Positions 90-60,865 of a DNA stretch of 64,000 nt are shown piece by piece. The DNA lies in contig KB904821.1 in the NCBI GenBank assembly GCA_000380225.1, positions 939,252-1,003,251 of the forward strand, written 5' to 3'. The stretch comes from a filamentous cyanobacterium ESFC-1 (GTDB taxonomy: Bacteria; Cyanobacteriota; Cyanobacteriia; Cyanobacteriales; Spirulinaceae). The stretch's first letter is position 1, and the number at the start of each line of letters is the position of its first letter. A program made the position numbers and the translations under genes. The notes under the pieces are model-generated. The model was not told the origin of the DNA and did no database searches. It worked only from the letters and a program-made list of their open reading frames with translations.

Positions 90-150
90 AAATCCCCTAT
101 AAAAATGCCACACTTAAAACATCAAACTATTGTGATTCGCACAGTTGTCC

Positions 151-1641
151 ATGAAAGCCATTATGGTAGTGGGAACAACCTCCCATGCAGGTAAATCCTT
201 CATCGCCGCCGCGTTATGCCGCATTTTGTCTCGGCGAGGTTGGCGAGTTACCCCCTTCAAAGGTCAAAACATGGCCCTCAACGCCTATGTAACCTCCACA
301 GGCGGTGAAATTGGCTATGCTCAAGCCGTTCAAGCTTGGGCTGCCCGCGTCAGTCCTTGGGTCGAAATGAACCCGATTCTGCTCAAACCCCAAGGAAACA
401 TGACCTCCCAAGTAATAATTCGCGGCCAAGTCGCCGGAGTTACCACCGCCGCCGAATATTACGAAAAATACTTTGATACCGGTTGGCAAGCAATCCAAGA
501 CTCCTTGCGATCGCTCGCATCAGAATTTGACTTAGCCGTTTGCGAAGGCGCAGGCAGTCCCGCCGAAATCAACCTCAAACATCGGGACCTCACCAATATG
601 CGCGTTGCCAAATACCTCAACGCCCCAACCCTTTTAGTCGTTGACATCGATCGCGGCGGTGCTTTTGCTCATGTCGTGGGAACCCTAGCACTACTCGAAC
701 CCGAAGAACGACAACTAATCAAAGGCATTGTTATCAACAAATTCCGCGGCCAAAAATCTATCCTGCAACCCGGTATTGATTGGCTCGAAGAATACACCGG
801 AATCCCCGTCGTGGGTGTAATTCCTTGGAGTAATACCCTCTTTCCTTCTGAAGACTCCCTCGATCTCTTTGAACGCCGCGCTCACAAACCCCGCCGCGAA
901 CTCACCATTGCCATTATCCGCTTACCCCGCATCGCCAACTTTACCGACTTCGACCCCCTCGAATCCGAACCCACCGTTGAAGTCCGTTACATCAGCCCCG
1001 ACGATGACTTAGGTTATCCCGATGCCGTGATTTTACCTGGCTCCAAAACAACCCTAGCCGATTTGAAAATTCTACAAGACAGTGGCATGGCCAAAGCCAT
1101 CCAAGATTATGCGGTAGCAGGTGGTACAGTGATGGGCATTTGTGGCGGTTTTCAAATGTTAGGGGAATCTATTTCCGACCCCGAAGGGTTAGAAGGAGAA
1201 GTATCCGAACACACCCCAGGTCTCGATTTATTACCCCTGAAAACCGTCATCGCTCGTCACAAAATTTCTCGTCAGCGCCAAGTTATCTCCAACTTTCCCC
1301 AAGGGGGACTTCCCGTGGAAGGTTACGAAATCCACCAAGGGCGATCGATGTTGGTCGAAACCCGTAAAGGTAAACTAAGGGAAGAATACAGCCCGTTATT
1401 TGAAGACCCCAGTTTGGGCATTGTCGATCGCACTCAGTTGACTTGGGGTTGTTATCTTCACGGTTTATTTGATAATGGGGCCTGGCGGCGATCCTGGCTC
1501 AATCACTTGCGTCAGCGTCGCGGCTTGATTTCTTTGCCCACCGGACTCCCGAACTATCGCGAACAACGAGAGATTATCCAAGATGAGTTGGCCAATTTGG
1601 TCGAAGCCCATATCGATCTCAGCCCGGTTTTGCCTAGTTAG
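151..1641 (+). CDS. cobQ: Cobyric acid synthase (glutamine-hydrolysing)
   Basis: The enzyme amidates four carboxyls of adenosylcobyrinic a,c-diamide, with ammonia from glutamine and ATP hydrolysis, late in cobalamin synthesis in the cytoplasm. The N-terminal dethiobiotin-synthetase-like ATPase domain starts with MVVGTTSHAGKS, a P-loop-like segment, followed by KGQNMALNAYVT. The C-terminal half is a class I glutamine amidotransferase with GICGGFQMLG carrying the nucleophile Cys and a late GCYLHGLFDN His motif. The length of about 496 residues is normal for the family. A TTG codon six bases upstream is in frame, but the ATG at 151 fits the family N-terminus. Heptamer arrays flank the gene on both sides. 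A small ferredoxin gene follows in the same direction. Confidence 0.97.
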   Translation: MKAIMVVGTTSHAGKSFIAAALCRILSRRGWRVTPFKGQNMALNAYVTSTGGEIGYAQAVQAWAARVSPWVEMNPILLKPQGNMTSQVIIRGQVAGVTTAAEYYEKYFDTGWQAIQDSLRSLASEFDLAVCEGAGSPAEINLKHRDLTNMRVAKYLNAPTLLVVDIDRGGAFAHVVGTLALLEPEERQLIKGIVINKFRGQKSILQPGIDWLEEYTGIPVVGVIPWSNTLFPSEDSLDLFERRAHKPRRELTIAIIRLPRIANFTDFDPLESEPTVEVRYISPDDDLGYPDAVILPGSKTTLADLKILQDSGMAKAIQDYAVAGGTVMGICGGFQMLGESISDPEGLEGEVSEHTPGLDLLPLKTVIARHKISRQRQVISNFPQGGLPVEGYEIHQGRSMLVETRKGKLREEYSPLFEDPSLGIVDRTQLTWGCYLHGLFDNGAWRRSWLNHLRQRRGLISLPTGLPNYREQREIIQDELANLVEAHIDLSPVLPS

Positions 1642-2006
1642 TCCTTGGTCTTTTGTTCTTTGTCCTTTGTTGTTGGTTGTTGGTTATTGGTTGTTGGTTG
1701 TTGGTTGTTGGTTGTTGGTTATTGGTTGTTGGTTATTTCTGGTGCGCGTTCCCTTGCGCCTTACGGCGGCGCGGGGTCGCACCAGTTATTGGTTATTGGG
1801 CAGGGAAAAGATCGCCCCTACATAACGATTGCCCACTGCCTACAGCAAAGCTGCCCAAGACCCACTGCCCAAAACACTGATTACTGATAACTGATAACTG
1901 ATGACTGAAGAAACCTCCCGACTGCCGATTGCCGATTGCCGATTGCCCCTTAGAGGCTGTTGACTGAAAAAAGCTGCCCCTTAATCGCTGATAACTGATT
2001 ACTGTC
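1642..2006 (-). repeat. Composite intergenic repeat, reverse orientation (copy E1)
   Basis: This gap is built of repeat modules. TTTGTCC-like heptamers occupy 1642-1668 and TTGGTTG/TTGGTTA heptamers 1669-1738. A 43-base imperfect hairpin beginning GGTGCG and ending CGCACC lies at 1741-1783. A core beginning GGGCAGGG and ending CCCCTAC lies at 1798-1821. CCCACTG/CCGATTG units follow, and then TAACTGA units that run up to the ferredoxin start. The module order is the reverse complement of that at 60482-60865, and the 43-base hairpin is identical to that copy except at one base. Confidence 0.85.
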
Positions 2007-2246: not shown

Positions 2247-2796
2247 CTGATTGCTCTAGAGGGGAAACTCGGTTTAAAAACCGTATCATTTTTAACAATT
2301 TGTCTTATTCTGGAGATTGCTCAGAATCTTGGCTCAAGGGCGATCGCGCCGGATTACGATCCGAGTGAGGGCGTTAATCCTGATAATTTCACTTAGACAC
2401 AGACGACGGGAGCGATCGGGCTTCGCCTACCCCTTCGCGATCGCGAGTTTTTATTCCCTCAGTCCTGGGGGGCGGCGCTCCTCTTAGGTGCTCTCGGTGA
2501 AACTTAATTTTACTTTTTGAGGCTGAAACCATAGTATAGTCTAGTGTTGAGCCTTTTTTAGAGTCTGCCATCTAGCAAGAAGTTTCTGACTCACTTTCTG
2601 GGGCAAAATCCCCACTCCCCCCCGACTGCCGAGGAGCCGATTGCCGAGGAGCCCCTTAATCGCTGATCGCTGAAAAAACCGGCCTCTGTTGCCGCGAAAG
2701 GTCATCAAAGCGCCATAATGGTTTTGATTGACTCGGCCTAAACTGCTATGGTTTTATGGCGTGGATTAATCCCGATGTCTAAGAGCCAAATAAGCC
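2247..2796. other. Intergenic region with a hairpin repeat and an inverted repeat
   Basis: No convincing gene is seen in these 550 bases. It holds a dispersed repeat at about 2498-2618 (separate entry), CCGACTGCC/CCGATTGCC units at about 2620-2660, and an inverted repeat GCGCCATAA at 2709-2717 with TTATGGCG at 2755-2762. The inverted repeat lies 35 to 90 bases before the next start codon and could be an operator or a leader hairpin; that is inference. A possible 60-codon frame on the minus strand (2389-2571) overlaps the dispersed repeat and was not accepted. Confidence 0.5.
2498..2618 (+). ncRNA. Dispersed hairpin plus T-run element (copy A), possible small RNA or terminator
   Basis: About 120 bases that match 53365-53489 on the opposite strand. 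Shared blocks include TGAAACTTAATT, GGCTGAAA, TAGTCTAG, AGCCTTTTT and AAGTTTCTGACTC. GGCT at 2521-2524 pairs with AGCC at 2550-2553, directly before six T residues, which is the form of an intrinsic terminator. The inner stem differs from copy B in both arms. Whether it is a small RNA, a terminator or a non-autonomous mobile element is not resolved. Confidence 0.45.
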
Positions 2797-9865: not shown

Positions 9866-10430
9866 CCTTGTTGTTGGTTGTTGGTCATTTGTCCTTCGTC
9901 CTTTGTTGTTTTTTCTGATTCTCCAGTACAACTTTGTTTGTCCTTGGTCATTTGTCCTTCGTCCTTTGTTGTTTTTTCTGATTCTCCAGTACAACTTTGT
10001 TTGTCCTTGGTCATTTGTCCTTCGTCCTTTGTTGTTTTTTCTGATTCTCCAGTACAACTTTGTTTGTCCTTGGTCATTTGTCCTTCGTCCTTTGTTGTTT
10101 TTTTCTGATTCTCCAGTACAAACCCAAGAATGCTACACCGGATGCTAATGACCAATGACCAATGACTTTGGTTTGTCCTTGGTCATTTGTCCTTCGTCCT
10201 TTGTTGTTTTTTTCTGATTCTCCAGTACAAACCCAAGAATGCTACACCGGATGCTAATGACCAATGACCAATGACTAATGACTTTGGTTTGTCCTTGGTC
10301 ATTTGTCCTTCGTCCTTTGTTATTTTTTTCTGATTCTCCAGTACAAACCCAAGAATGCTACACCGGATGCTAATGACCAATGACCAATGACCAATGACCA
10401 ATGACTAATGACTAATGACAATCTCTGACC
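9866..10430. repeat. Tandem repeats of 63, 109 and 116 bases built from TTTGTCC/TTGGTCA heptamers
   Basis: The block containing TTTGTCCTTCGTCCTTTG, followed by CTGATTCTCCAGTACAA, begins near 9886 and recurs at spacings of 63, 63, 63, 109 and 116 bases. The longer units add CCCAAGAATGCTACACCGG and runs of AATGACC. The gap lies between divergent genes (SGNH hydrolase and antiporter). The end near 10430 has A/C-rich AATGACC runs, while the left side reads TTTGTCC, in line with the arm rule seen elsewhere. The remaining 10431-10577 holds no evident gene and presumably the antiporter promoter. Confidence 0.9.
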
Positions 10431-17610: not shown

Positions 17611-17818
17611 TTTTATCAGTTTTCAGTTATCAGTAATCAGTCATCAGTTTTTTGGGCAGCTTTTTTCAGTCATCGCCTCATCAGTAATCAGTAATCAGTT
17701 TTTTGGGTATTCGGCTTGTAGGGGCGGGGAAACCCCGCCCAACAACCAATCACCAACAACCAACAACCAACAACCAATAACCAACAACCAATAACAAACA
17801 ACCAACAACCAATCACCC
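17611..17818 (+). repeat. Composite intergenic repeat, forward orientation (copy E2)
   Basis: Left arm: ATCAGT-type units at 17611-17707 with GGGCAG pieces. Core: a palindrome beginning GTAGGGGCGGGG at 17718-17740. Right arm: CCAACAA/CCAATAA heptamers at 17741-17812, which run right up to and into the CHAT gene stop codon at 17813-17815. The module order matches 60482-60865 without the GGTGCG hairpin. Confidence 0.85.
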
Positions 17819-21153: not shown

Positions 21154-21404
21154 TCATTGGTTGTTTGTTGTTGGTTATTGGTTATTGGTTATTGGTTATT
21201 GGTTATTGGTTATTGGTTATTGGTTATTGGTTATTGGTTATTGGTTATTGGTTATTGGTTATTGGTTATTGGGCGGGGAAAAGATCGCCCCTACAAGCCT
21301 ACTGCCGATTGCCGATTGCCCAAAATCTTCCCCCTCTCCCCACTGCCCAAGACCTACTGCCCACTGCCCACTGCCTCAACAACTGATGACTGATAACTGA
21401 AAAG
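21154..21404 (-). repeat. Composite intergenic repeat, reverse orientation, with a perfect 7-base array (copy E3)
   Basis: Fourteen uninterrupted, identical copies of TTGGTTA occupy 21171-21268. The core beginning GGGCGGGG and ending CCCCTAC lies at 21271-21294. CCGATTGCC and CCCACTGCC units run from about 21300 to 21375, and ACTGATGACTGATAACTGA lies near 21381-21399. The order is the same as in E1 and E4. The gap lies between divergent genes (21049 minus, 21491 plus). Confidence 0.92.
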
Positions 21405-24390: not shown

Positions 24391-24541
24391 TTGGTTGTTG
24401 GTTGTTGGTTGTTGGTTGTTGGTGTTCGCTCTTATTCCCTCAATTGGGCGGGGAAACCCCGCCCCTACACCCCCACTGCCCACTGCCGATTGCCGATTGC
24501 CCCTTAGAAGCTGATAACTGATTACTGATAACTGACCACTG
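24391..24541 (-). repeat. Composite intergenic repeat, reverse orientation (copy E4)
   Basis: TTGGTTG heptamers at 24391-24423, a core beginning GGGCGGGG at 24446-24468, then CCCACTGCC/CCGATTGCC units at 24473-24502 and ACTGATAACTGATTACTGA at about 24510-24535. The order is the same as E1 and E3. It fills the whole space between dnaB and rplI. Confidence 0.9.
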
Positions 24542-46103: not shown

Positions 46104-46517
46104 ATGACGTTTATTTATCCCTATGTTATTCGTTTAGCCGATACAGATGCGGCAGGGGTGATTTATTTTGCAAAAGCCCTCGAAATTTGCCACGAAGCTT
46201 ATGAGTCTTATTTGGCGAGTTGCGCGATCGCACTCCCCCATTTCGCTCGCTCTCATTCGATAGCCCTTCCCATCGTACACAGTGCGGCGGATTTTTTGCG
46301 GCCTTTGGTGTGGGGCGATCGCGTCTCGGTTCATCTGAGCGCCACTCCCCCCAGAACTCACAGTTTTGAGTTGAATTATACAGTGACCCCTGAAAACCAA
46401 CGAGACGCGATCGCGATTTCTGCTTGCACTCGTCATGTTTGTATCGATCCTCAAACTCGCTCTAAGGTTTTGCTTCCAGATAAGTTGAGGGAGGCGGTTT
46501 TGGGTTTGGGGCAGTAG
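46104..46517 (+). CDS. 1,4-dihydroxy-2-naphthoyl-CoA hydrolase
   Basis: A 137-residue hot-dog-fold thioesterase of phylloquinone synthesis. Marks: TFIYPYVIRLADTDAAGVIYFAKALEICHEAYES, with the catalytic Asp in TDAAGVIYF, and SADFLRPLVWGDRVSVHLS. Orthologues in cyanobacteria release 1,4-dihydroxy-2-naphthoate. The start at 46104 is preferred, with AAGGAAGGG upstream. It is transcribed alone; a repeat block and tRNA-Asn follow. Confidence 0.88.
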   Translation: MTFIYPYVIRLADTDAAGVIYFAKALEICHEAYESYLASCAIALPHFARSHSIALPIVHSAADFLRPLVWGDRVSVHLSATPPRTHSFELNYTVTPENQRDAIAISACTRHVCIDPQTRSKVLLPDKLREAVLGLGQ

Positions 46518-46738
46518 GCGTGTAGGGGCGGGGTTTCCCCGTCCTTTGAGAGAGTGGGGAGGAGGGGGAAGAGGGGGAGGAGGGGGAAGAGGGGGAGGAA
46601 ATTACCAATTACCAATTGAGGGATTCTGCCAATAACCAATAACCAATAACCAATAACCAACAACCAATAACCAACAACCAATAACCAACAACCAATAACC
46701 AACAACCAACAACCAATGACAAAGGACAAAGGACAAAA
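46500..46738 (+). repeat. Composite intergenic repeat, forward orientation (copy E5), with polypurine tract
   Basis: GGGCAGT-like pieces adjoin the thioesterase stop. The core beginning GTAGGGGCGGGG lies at 46522-46543. A 45-base polypurine run of GGGGGA-type units lies at about 46555-46599, followed by ATTACCAATTACCAATTGAG. CCAATAA/CCAACAA heptamers occupy 46629-46715, and GACAAAGGACAAAGGAC the end. The polypurine and ACCAATTACC parts also occur in shorter form at 54215-54260. Confidence 0.88.
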
Positions 46739-52300: not shown

Positions 52301-53350
52301 TTGAATTGGCCATCGATTTCCGTTATTATCCCTACCTATGGGCGAGAAGAGATTCTCTGCGATACGATCGCGGACGCATTGCAGCAAGACTACCCGGATT
52401 TTGAGGTGTTGGTGGTGGATCAAACCCCCGAACACGAACCCAAAACTACAGAATATTTAGCCAAACAAGCGGATTTAGGCAAAATTCAATGGTTTCGCCT
52501 GGATTGGGCCAGTTTGCCGGGAGCGAGAAATTATGCGGTGCGGCGATCGCGTGGTGATATCTTACTATTCATCGATGATGATGTCCGCATCCCCGCAGGC
52601 TATCTGTACGCTCACGCTCGCAATTATGAACGAGAAGAAGTGGGAATCGTTGCCGGACGGGTGTTTGACCGCATGAAGATGGCCGACGCACAAAAGGGCT
52701 ATCCCCAGTTGCCCGATCTCATGCAAAGCAACAAAGCCGCCGGACAGCCTTATGAAATTGAGGAACTCCCCCCCCAAGCCATGGACCCCGGTATTGCTTG
52801 GTATTACATCGATTTAGTCCATACAGTAAAGCCCCAACAAGTGATTTCGGCCCGAGGCTGTAATATGTCGTTTCGTCGCGAGATATTTTTTAAACATAAT
52901 TTATGGTTTGACGAGCGTTTCCGGGGGAGTGCGGTGCGCGAGGAGTCCGATTTTTGTTTGCGATCGCGCTCCACTGGCTACATGATATGGTACGACCCCG
53001 AAGCCCATCTGGTGCATTTAGGGGAAATGACGGGAGGTTGTCACGATATTGCCACGCGATCGCTGCGATACCAAATGACTTTTTATCACAATCACTTTTT
53101 GATGGCGATGAAAAACTTAACCGGGGGTCAGCAATGGCGCTTATTTGCTCGGTTATTTGATTGTCACGTTTTAGGCAATCCCCCTTGCTATAAAAGCGGC
53201 TCTCCCTTCAAAATCTTCATCCGAGGGGTTTTCTATAGTCTCGGCTTTTTAAACGCCCTTGGTACGCGATTTAAGGGGCTTTGGGATGATGGTCAGGTGT
53301 ACACGCGGGGGGATGGCAGTTATCAGTCATCAGCTTCTAAGGGGCAGTAG
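52301..53350 (+). CDS. Family 2 glycosyltransferase, HpsN-like
   Basis: A 349-residue GT-A fold glycosyltransferase. Marks: ISVIIPTYGREEILCDTI (nucleotide binding), VLVVDQTPEHEP, GARNYAVRRSRGDILLFIDDDV with the DxD-like Asp residues, and FRREIFFKHNLWFDERFRGSAVREESDF for the acceptor side. It probably adds a sugar to a surface polysaccharide with the ligase gene just upstream. The start is TTG with AAGGAG about ten bases upstream. The last dozen codons are made of the AGTTATCAGTCATCAG repeat, so its C-terminus was replaced by repeat DNA. Confidence 0.83.
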   Translation: MNWPSISVIIPTYGREEILCDTIADALQQDYPDFEVLVVDQTPEHEPKTTEYLAKQADLGKIQWFRLDWASLPGARNYAVRRSRGDILLFIDDDVRIPAGYLYAHARNYEREEVGIVAGRVFDRMKMADAQKGYPQLPDLMQSNKAAGQPYEIEELPPQAMDPGIAWYYIDLVHTVKPQQVISARGCNMSFRREIFFKHNLWFDERFRGSAVREESDFCLRSRSTGYMIWYDPEAHLVHLGEMTGGCHDIATRSLRYQMTFYHNHFLMAMKNLTGGQQWRLFARLFDCHVLGNPPCYKSGSPFKIFIRGVFYSLGFLNALGTRFKGLWDDGQVYTRGDGSYQSSASKGQ

Positions 53351-53364
53351 GCAGCTTTGCTGTA

Positions 53365-53489
53365 GGGGGAGTTGAATTCTACCCCAGAAAGGGAGTCAGA
53401 AACTTTGGTTTTTAGGGGTTAGTTTTAAAAAGGCTACAAGCTAGACTAGATAAGCTTTTCAGCCCAAAAAAGTACAATTAAGTTTCAAA
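53365..53489 (-). ncRNA. Dispersed hairpin plus T-run element (copy B)
   Basis: The reverse complement of this stretch aligns to 2498-2618 with most blocks conserved. The outer stem is GGCT with AGCC followed by five T residues, as in copy A. The inner stem here is AAGCT with AGCTT, where copy A has AAC with GTT. Both arms changed together, which suggests selection on the hairpin. Confidence 0.45.
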
Positions 53490-53564
53490 GAGAGTTATCA
53501 GTCATCAGTTATCAAATGAAGATGAATCTCAAATAACAAATGACGAAGGACAAAAGACCAAGAA

Positions 53565-54133: not shown

Positions 54134-54328
54134 TAGGCAGTGGGCAAGTGGGCAGTAGGTCTTAGGCAGTAGGTCTTGGGCAGTGGGCGTGTAGGGGCGG
54201 GGTTTCCCCGCCCAGATGGGGAGGAGTGGGAGGAAATTAACAACTACCAATTACCAATTGAGAGAGAAAACATCTGTTCTCTACCAATAACCAAGGACAA
54301 ATGACCAATAACAAAGGACAAAAGACTA
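54134..54328 (+). repeat. Composite intergenic repeat, forward orientation (copy E6)
   Basis: GGGCAGT/GGTCTT units at 54134-54188, the core beginning GTAGGGGCGGGG at 54191-54213, a GGGGAGGAGTGGGAGG segment with ACTACCAATTACCAATTGAG, then CCAATAACC and GGACAAATGACC units up to the DnaJ-type gene stop. It lies between two minus-strand genes. Confidence 0.85.
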
Positions 54329-60481: not shown

Positions 60482-60865
60482 TTTCTTCAGTTAACAGTTT
60501 TTTGGGCAGTGGGCAGCTTTTTCAGTAATCAGTCATCAGTAATCGCCTCATCAGTTTTTTGGGCAATCGGCAATCGGCAATCGGTGTGTAGGGGCGGGGT
60601 TTCCCTGCCCAATAACCAACAACTGGTGCGACCCCGCGCCGCCGAAAGGCGCAAGGGAACGCGCACCAGAAATAACCAACAACCAACAACCAATAACCAA
60701 CAACCAATAACCAATAACCAATAACCAACAACCAACAACCAATAACCAACAACCAATAACCAACAACCAACAACCAATAACCAACAACCAATAACCAACA
60801 ACCAATAACCAATAACCAATAACCAATAACCAATAACCAATAACCAATAACCAATAACCAAATTT
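60482..60865 (+). repeat. Composite intergenic repeat, forward orientation, fullest copy (E7)
   Basis: ATCAGT/TCAGTAATCAG units with GGGCAGTGGGC pieces lie at 60483-60560, and GGGCAATCGG units at 60561-60584. The core beginning GTAGGGGCGGGG lies at 60588-60610. The 43-base hairpin beginning GGTGCG lies at 60625-60667. About 27 CCAATAA/CCAACAA heptamers follow (60672-60862), ending three bases before the next start codon. Its reverse-complement order equals 1642-2006. Confidence 0.92.

Follow-up and report, generated by a model that had tools for sequence, protein, structure and literature searches.

Polar composites of heptanucleotide arrays and palindromes in the intergenic gaps of a filamentous cyanobacterium: probable mosaic islands spread by copying and recombination

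Introduction

What fills the gap in front of the DUF192 gene of ESFC-1, and how did it come to be there? The gap is 384 bp long, compared with ~8 bp (G006) to a few tens of bp (G002, G009 and G010; range ~8-40) in same-family genera, in which the upstream response regulator is the same. It is occupied from end to end: a composite of heptanucleotide arrays and palindromes has its first base directly after the stop codon and extends to the start codon. A sequence-only reading of the window, a 64-kb stretch of DNA (C1:939252-1003251), noted that at least seven gaps are built in this way with a fixed order of modules. It suggested either a single element that moves or is copied as a unit, or a structure rebuilt by recombination. 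The host genome comprises 5.63 Mb in three contigs. Host counts come from a contiguous 1.66 Mb of it (C1:1-1663000, 30% of the genome), and genes for context counts were called by a simple longest-ORF rule.

The modules

The modules are coded as follows. A (NATCAGT), B (RGGCAGT), C (CGGCAAT), W (AATTACC), R (CCAAYNA) and K (ACAAAGG) are heptamers. P is a GTAG palindrome, U a purine run (GAGGGGGAGGA), H a 47-nt hairpin and T a MITE-like piece of ~140 bp with the ends CAGAAACTT/AAGTTTCTG, which emerged from the comparison of composites. On direct reading all seven gaps carry the modules originally listed, but not every module in each copy (Table 1), and the three copies described as inverted (1642, 21154 and 24391) are so. 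Some details need amending. The hairpin common to the 1642 and 60482 composites is indeed shared, but it is 47 nt long rather than 43. The modules listed are real, but two that lie between the palindrome and the CCAAYAA array were missed, namely the purine run and the AATTACC heptamers (46500, 54134 and others). Finally, the seven gaps listed are an understatement, as there are further composites at 53322-53554 and 2491-2653. The window also holds a cluster (9871-10404) that departs from the usual arrangement on one strand: its K and R arrays alternate in opposite orientations, with a repeat of ~110 bp.

Table 1. Composites and selected modules in the window (positions are those of the window; module strings in codes defined in the text).
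Feature	Position	Strand	Remarks
Composite A-C-P-R-H-R	60482..60865	+	Spans the whole gap from the response regulator stop codon to the DUF192 gene start
P palindrome, REP type, GTAG-GGGCGGGG-TTT-CCCTGCCC-AA	60588..60612	+	Stem 8, loop 3; fold and genome copies
H, 47-nt hairpin CTGGTGCG...CGCACCAG within CCAAYAA array	60623..60669	+	Fold; 68 core copies in genome
R, CCAATAA/CCAACAA heptamer array	60676..60857	+	Ends nearly at the DUF192 start codon
Composite K-R-H-R-P-A-C-A as read on +	1642..2006	-	Between cbiA-like and ferredoxin-like genes
H copy	1739..1785	-	Reverse complement of 60623-60669
Composite A-P-R	17611..17818	+	
Composite A-B-C-P-R (minus-strand reading)	21154..21404	-	
Composite A-C-B-P-R (minus-strand reading)	24391..24541	-	rplI-dnaB gap
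Composite B-P-U-W-R-K	46500..46738	+	Without ATCAGT array
Composite B-P-U-W-K	54134..54328	+	Few CCAATAA units; without ATCAGT array
Composite A-T-A-K	53322..53554	+	T module at 53365-53502; absent from the earlier list
Composite C-T	2491..2653	-	T module at 2491-2623; absent from the earlier list
Array cluster	9871-10404		Absent from the earlier list

Tandem heptameric repeats (STRR) have long been known in filamentous cyanobacteria, where they have been handled as single families. Modules A, B, C, W, R and K belong with them, all being tandem heptanucleotides in cyanobacterial intergenic DNA. The host sample contains 451 tandem runs with a period of 7, and 7, 26 and 1 with periods of 5, 6 and 8, respectively. 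Known heptamer arrays of this kind include TAACTGA (PMC4679880), which is the reverse complement of a module A unit, as well as GGGGA(C/T)T in Nostoc and GGGAATC in Xanthomonas (PMC4692102). What sets the present case apart from STRR-type systems is that several heptamer families are chained in one order, and that arrays of different sequence converge (see below). One property of R was considered and dropped as evidence. Position 5 of CCAAYNA is T 495 times and C 500 times, with four positions at least 99.4% fixed, and founder units plus multi-unit duplication suffice to produce this.

P has the features of a GTAG-type REP: an unpaired GTAG beside a stem-loop, with an 8-bp stem and a TTT loop that lie within the allowed ranges (stem 5-13, loop 2-20). 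It is also abundant (293 exact cores) and mainly intergenic, as judged on composites rather than on lone P copies. The sequence GTAGGGGCGGGG occurs 293 times genome-wide and 0 times when read backwards. REPs linked to RAYT genes are GTAG-tagged, with GTAG-12, -15 and -16 as cyanobacterial families (PMC3733652). Like P, the GTAG REPs have the tag, an 8-bp stem, a 3-nt loop and hundreds of mostly intergenic copies. Unlike them, P is regularly joined to heptamer arrays, and no RAYT was found flanked by the P family. Elsewhere on the same contig, at C1:702556-703032, six GTAG palindromes form a tandem series whose period is exactly 93 bp.

The exact P core, with its 293 copies in the host, is found only 0-9 times in each of 38 relatives. 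A scan for the P-R junction variant, whose pattern fits only longer-loop variants such as GTAGGGGCGATCTTTTCCCC, picked out 1 of 391 genomes of the order, namely the host, and a scan of viral contigs for the P-R junction found none. As a whole, the composite pattern is real, strong and specific to the lineage.

The core of H is present 68 times in the genome compared with 0 in a reversed control, and as ssDNA the hairpin folds with -14.1 kcal/mol (z -2.5). Within R arrays it has a single orientation and a single heptamer phase; elsewhere it is nested in copies of related hairpins. This is reminiscent of the small dispersed repeats (SDR) of Nostoc, which Elhai and colleagues reportedly described in 2008 as tiny hairpins of 21-27 nt, embedded in tandem heptamers and nested in one another. 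H is likewise embedded in heptamer arrays and self-nested, but at 47 nt it is longer than these. T is present in 44 copies in the 1.66 Mb, with the CAGAAACTT/AAGTTTCTG ends visible in many of them, and is flanked, as a rule, by a C/B array or P to its left and by an A array to its right. The best reading is that the composites are assembled from known kinds of repeat: STRR arrays, a REP, a small hairpin and a MITE-like piece. One further H copy lies in frame within tnpB beside an IS200-type tnpA (C1: ~2522-2524 kb), where it accounts for ~17 extra residues relative to another tnpB copy.

Order and strand

Is the order of modules really fixed? The modules were divided into a left set (ATCAGT, GGGCAGT, CGGCAAT and T) and a right set (AATTACC, CCAAYAA, ACAAAGG and the hairpin). 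The sample contains 159 clusters with at least two module types. Among left-set/right-set pairs within them, 290 have the left module first on one strand, 2 are reversed and 12 are on opposite strands. Counted per cluster, 68 are canonical, 0 reversed and 8 mixed. When modules were shuffled within clusters (2000 trials) the expectation was ~146:146, and the minimum was 94 reversed pairs. The same layout surrounds 137 GTAGGGGCG sites: on a common strand, units of A, B and C come before the site and those of R and K after it. For example, 99 A units fall in the 100 bases preceding these sites and 1 in the 100 bases following them. The transition table is almost triangular; the loops it contains mostly connect left-set modules with one another or R with K. 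The fixed order proposed for the seven gaps is therefore upheld. Every heptamer family is also found alone, which is a point in favour of a chance cluster of unrelated simple repeats, but an order of 290:2 that no shuffle approached refutes that explanation, and chance as the origin of the pattern is excluded. Module content, on the other hand, is highly variable, with 118 distinct cluster strings.

Blocks in otherwise tight gaps

Composites show no preference for a particular gene arrangement. Their gaps are co-directional, convergent and divergent in 59, 23 and 19% of cases, versus 61, 19 and 20% for all gaps, and only 14 of the 159 composites overlap an ORF. Where a composite edge faces a stop codon it lies a median of 22 bp away, and within 10 bp in 54 of 151 cases. 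The sequence-only reading had recommended a comparison of orthologous gaps, and this shows composites present as blocks here and tight gaps in other genera of the family. In addition to the DUF192 gap there is the cbiA-ferredoxin gap, which is 365 bp here versus ~35 bp in another genus of the family (G008). In other words, the composites are block insertions relative to other genera. No target duplications are visible in the compared gaps, the comparison being one between genera.

How the composites relate to each other

One clue to how the blocks arose is that they share sequence. There are 38 exact non-array stretches of 60-173 bp common to composites more than 3 kb apart, and these often take in several modules, as in a 112-bp A-B-P-R stretch at sites near 940.8 and 1317.9 kb. 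The shared stretches terminate inside modules. At least seven composites are mosaics, their left and right parts matching different partners. Another clue lies just upstream of the window, where the 1642 composite recurs in inverted orientation as a 484-bp identical copy; this duplication takes in the final 206 codons of the cbiA-like gene. Shared stretches, mosaics and a duplication that contains part of a gene all argue for copying and recombination and not for a unit that is excised and inserted. Therefore, of the explanations offered at the outset, copying and rebuilding by recombination are supported, whereas a single element moving as a unit is not: module content varies, no constant termini for the whole composite were found when cluster strings and shared stretches were compared, and no target duplication was seen. 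Two loci are worth describing in their own right. C1:938535-939152, just upstream of the window, is a 100% identical, inverted partial copy of the cbiA-like gene (residues 293-498) plus composite, relative to window positions 145-2006, and it looks recent and fold-back-like. At C1:1031212-1032557 there are tandem duplications of an A/C/T block, that is, composites growing by block duplication.

We consider it probable that the composites are polar mosaic repeat islands, similar to BIMEs and spread by collinear copying and recombination, rather than one transposon. Heptanucleotide arrays of the STRR type would invade intergenic gaps, often starting only a few bases from a stop codon, and the G-rich arrays on either side would point towards the middle of the gap. 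Small palindromic elements, namely the GTAG-type REP (P), the SDR-like 47-nt hairpin (H) and the ~140-bp MITE-like T, lie in the arrays with a fixed orientation. New composites would mainly result when one composite serves as the source of a multi-module stretch that is copied to a different gap or array. The route could be gene conversion, template switching or ectopic recombination, and the breakpoints would fall within arrays. Since such copying would be collinear, the copies would keep the order and strand but differ in their ends, unit numbers and module sets.

BIMEs (bacterial interspersed mosaic elements) are intergenic mosaics of REPs and other short motifs in recurrent arrangements. 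The transition table and the order test reveal the same kind of recurrent mosaic of a REP with other conserved motifs. However, the REP is here accompanied by heptanucleotide arrays and a MITE-like piece, in a cyanobacterial host. The alternating REP orientation of BIMEs is also lacking, with 12 opposite-strand versus 270 same-strand pairs involving P. Polar islands in which heptamers are strung together with REPs and hairpins, and which can fill a gap from stop to start, amount to a natural system for intergenic rewriting.

Some points count against collinear copying. Recombination alone does not explain how a first block enters a gap of 8-40 bp, and no recombinase or transposase for P was found. 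The fixed heptamer phase of H in R arrays could also reflect site-specific insertion.

Insertion, transposition or function?

What if insertion itself creates the order? A Y1/RAYT-type enzyme acting on ssDNA in a strand-specific manner might put P, and perhaps H, into arrays one way only. The constant strand and phase of H in R arrays would fit, as would the GTAG tag that P shares with RAYT-linked REPs (PMC3733652). However, the candidates in the genome do not. There are five PF01797 matches and two RAYT-like genes, at C1:1042153 (frameshifted) and C2:65612, and the palindromes flanking both belong to other GTAG families (GTAGGGTG... and GTAGTAAGGGC...). P is therefore without an evident transposase of its own, and its mobilisation by a resident RAYT is rejected. 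Searches of the genome found neither a cognate RAYT flanked by P, a frequent but not obligatory REP trait, nor any other recombinase or transposase for P. Moreover, insertion of this kind leaves the order of the heptamer arrays unexplained, as well as convergence without a palindrome. We regard it as unlikely.

It is also improbable that a resident transposase moves the composite as one non-autonomous transposable unit whose ends are defined. This would account for the blocks facing gaps of ~8-40 bp in relatives, and two composites do start at the same junction, TAG|TTCAGTTATCAG, after different genes. Nevertheless, a defined unit is hard to reconcile with 118 different cluster strings, with shared stretches that stop within modules and with a 484-bp duplication that runs into a gene, and the target duplication that would be its footprint was not seen in the compared gaps.

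Perhaps the composites do something for the cell, as terminators, UTR structures, regulator sites or other functional elements of transcription or RNA. Composite edges lie near stop codons, the 3' end of rplI is a hot spot (see below) and the TAACTGA arrays of Beggiatoaceae have been proposed as translational signals (PMC4679880). Against this, the gene arrangements are at background frequencies and the fold of the composite at 24392-24541 does not surpass those of shuffled sequences (z 0.55). A search of a sample of composite-bearing loci against Rfam likewise produced no credible family. A general giant stem formed by left and right heptamers was entertained and rejected, as the arms are not significantly more complementary than permuted pairs (p 0.10-0.98). 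In this respect the composites differ from the P6b stem of the Nostoc tRNA-Leu intron, whose two arms pair, although it resembles them as a heptamer-built region that has been replaced whole in independent lineages (PMC4476775). A functional element is thus a distinctly doubtful explanation, and on the copying account the composites would have no cellular role.

Convergent arrays and the rplI hot spot

Convergence of the arrays was assessed with heptamer arrays called de novo, of opposite G/C skew and no more than 300 bp apart, a pair being convergent when the G-rich array is on the left and the C-rich one on the right. At a skew threshold of 0.1 the convergent:divergent total is 75:3. It is made up of 27:3 in the host, 26:0 at 80 rplI loci, 17:0 in Sphaerospermopsis kisseleviana NIES-73, 3:0 in Microcoleus vaginatus HSN003 and 2:0 in Calothrix brevissima NIES-22. 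At 0.15 the ratio is 57:0. At the loosest threshold (0.03) the host gives 38:18, because balanced units (TCAGTNA, ACAAAGG) are then scored by one base. Array-free gaps give 14:8, and the difference from 75:3 (Fisher p = 1.8e-4) is indicative only, since loci are related by descent. The converging arms are often unlike in sequence. A polarity centred on genes, with G after the stop and C before the start, is only partial (98:54 among host gaps with one polarity).

There is a precedent in Xanthomonas, where GGGAATC repeats form convergent pairs, and in both Xanthomonas and Nostoc the G-rich repeats have the ORF on their 5' side close by (PMC4692102). The present result goes beyond it, as convergence extends to unlike arrays and to several cyanobacteria. 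It also differs from what was reported for Nostoc, in which inverted pairs were few (PMC4692102).

The second regularity concerns rplI, whose orthologues and flanks were taken from 80 named cyanobacterial records. At 42 of 79 loci the 200 bp following rplI contain a heptamer array, versus 89 of 821 for other gene ends; restricting the count to gaps of 150 bp or more gives 28 of 50 versus 50 of 337. In 36 of the 42 cases the array start falls in the interval from 9 bp before to 13 bp after the stop codon, and many different heptamers are represented. As regularities that are simple and open to test, convergence and the rplI hot spot must both be explained by any account of the 7-nt period or of the origin of the arrays.

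Could repair at broken ends be such an account? Cyanobacteria (and Xanthomonas) might extend 3' ends at intergenic breaks with lineage-specific G-rich heptamers and then join the ends, so that composites would be repair fossils in which REPs and hairpins settled later. If so, 3'-end extension would leave converging G-rich arrays abutting genes, like fused telomeres. It would also explain a 7-nt period with varied sequences, the convergence of unlike arrays, starts at stop codons and hot spots of the rplI type. Despite this reach we hold it to be very improbable.

The hot spot is found across filamentous cyanobacteria, with heptamers that differ by lineage. In about half of the other cyanobacteria the rplI-dnaB gap, which in the window holds the composite at 24391-24541, contains other heptamer arrays. 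The sequence downstream of rplI in one member of the same family (G005) is that of Spirulina subsalsa FACHB-351.
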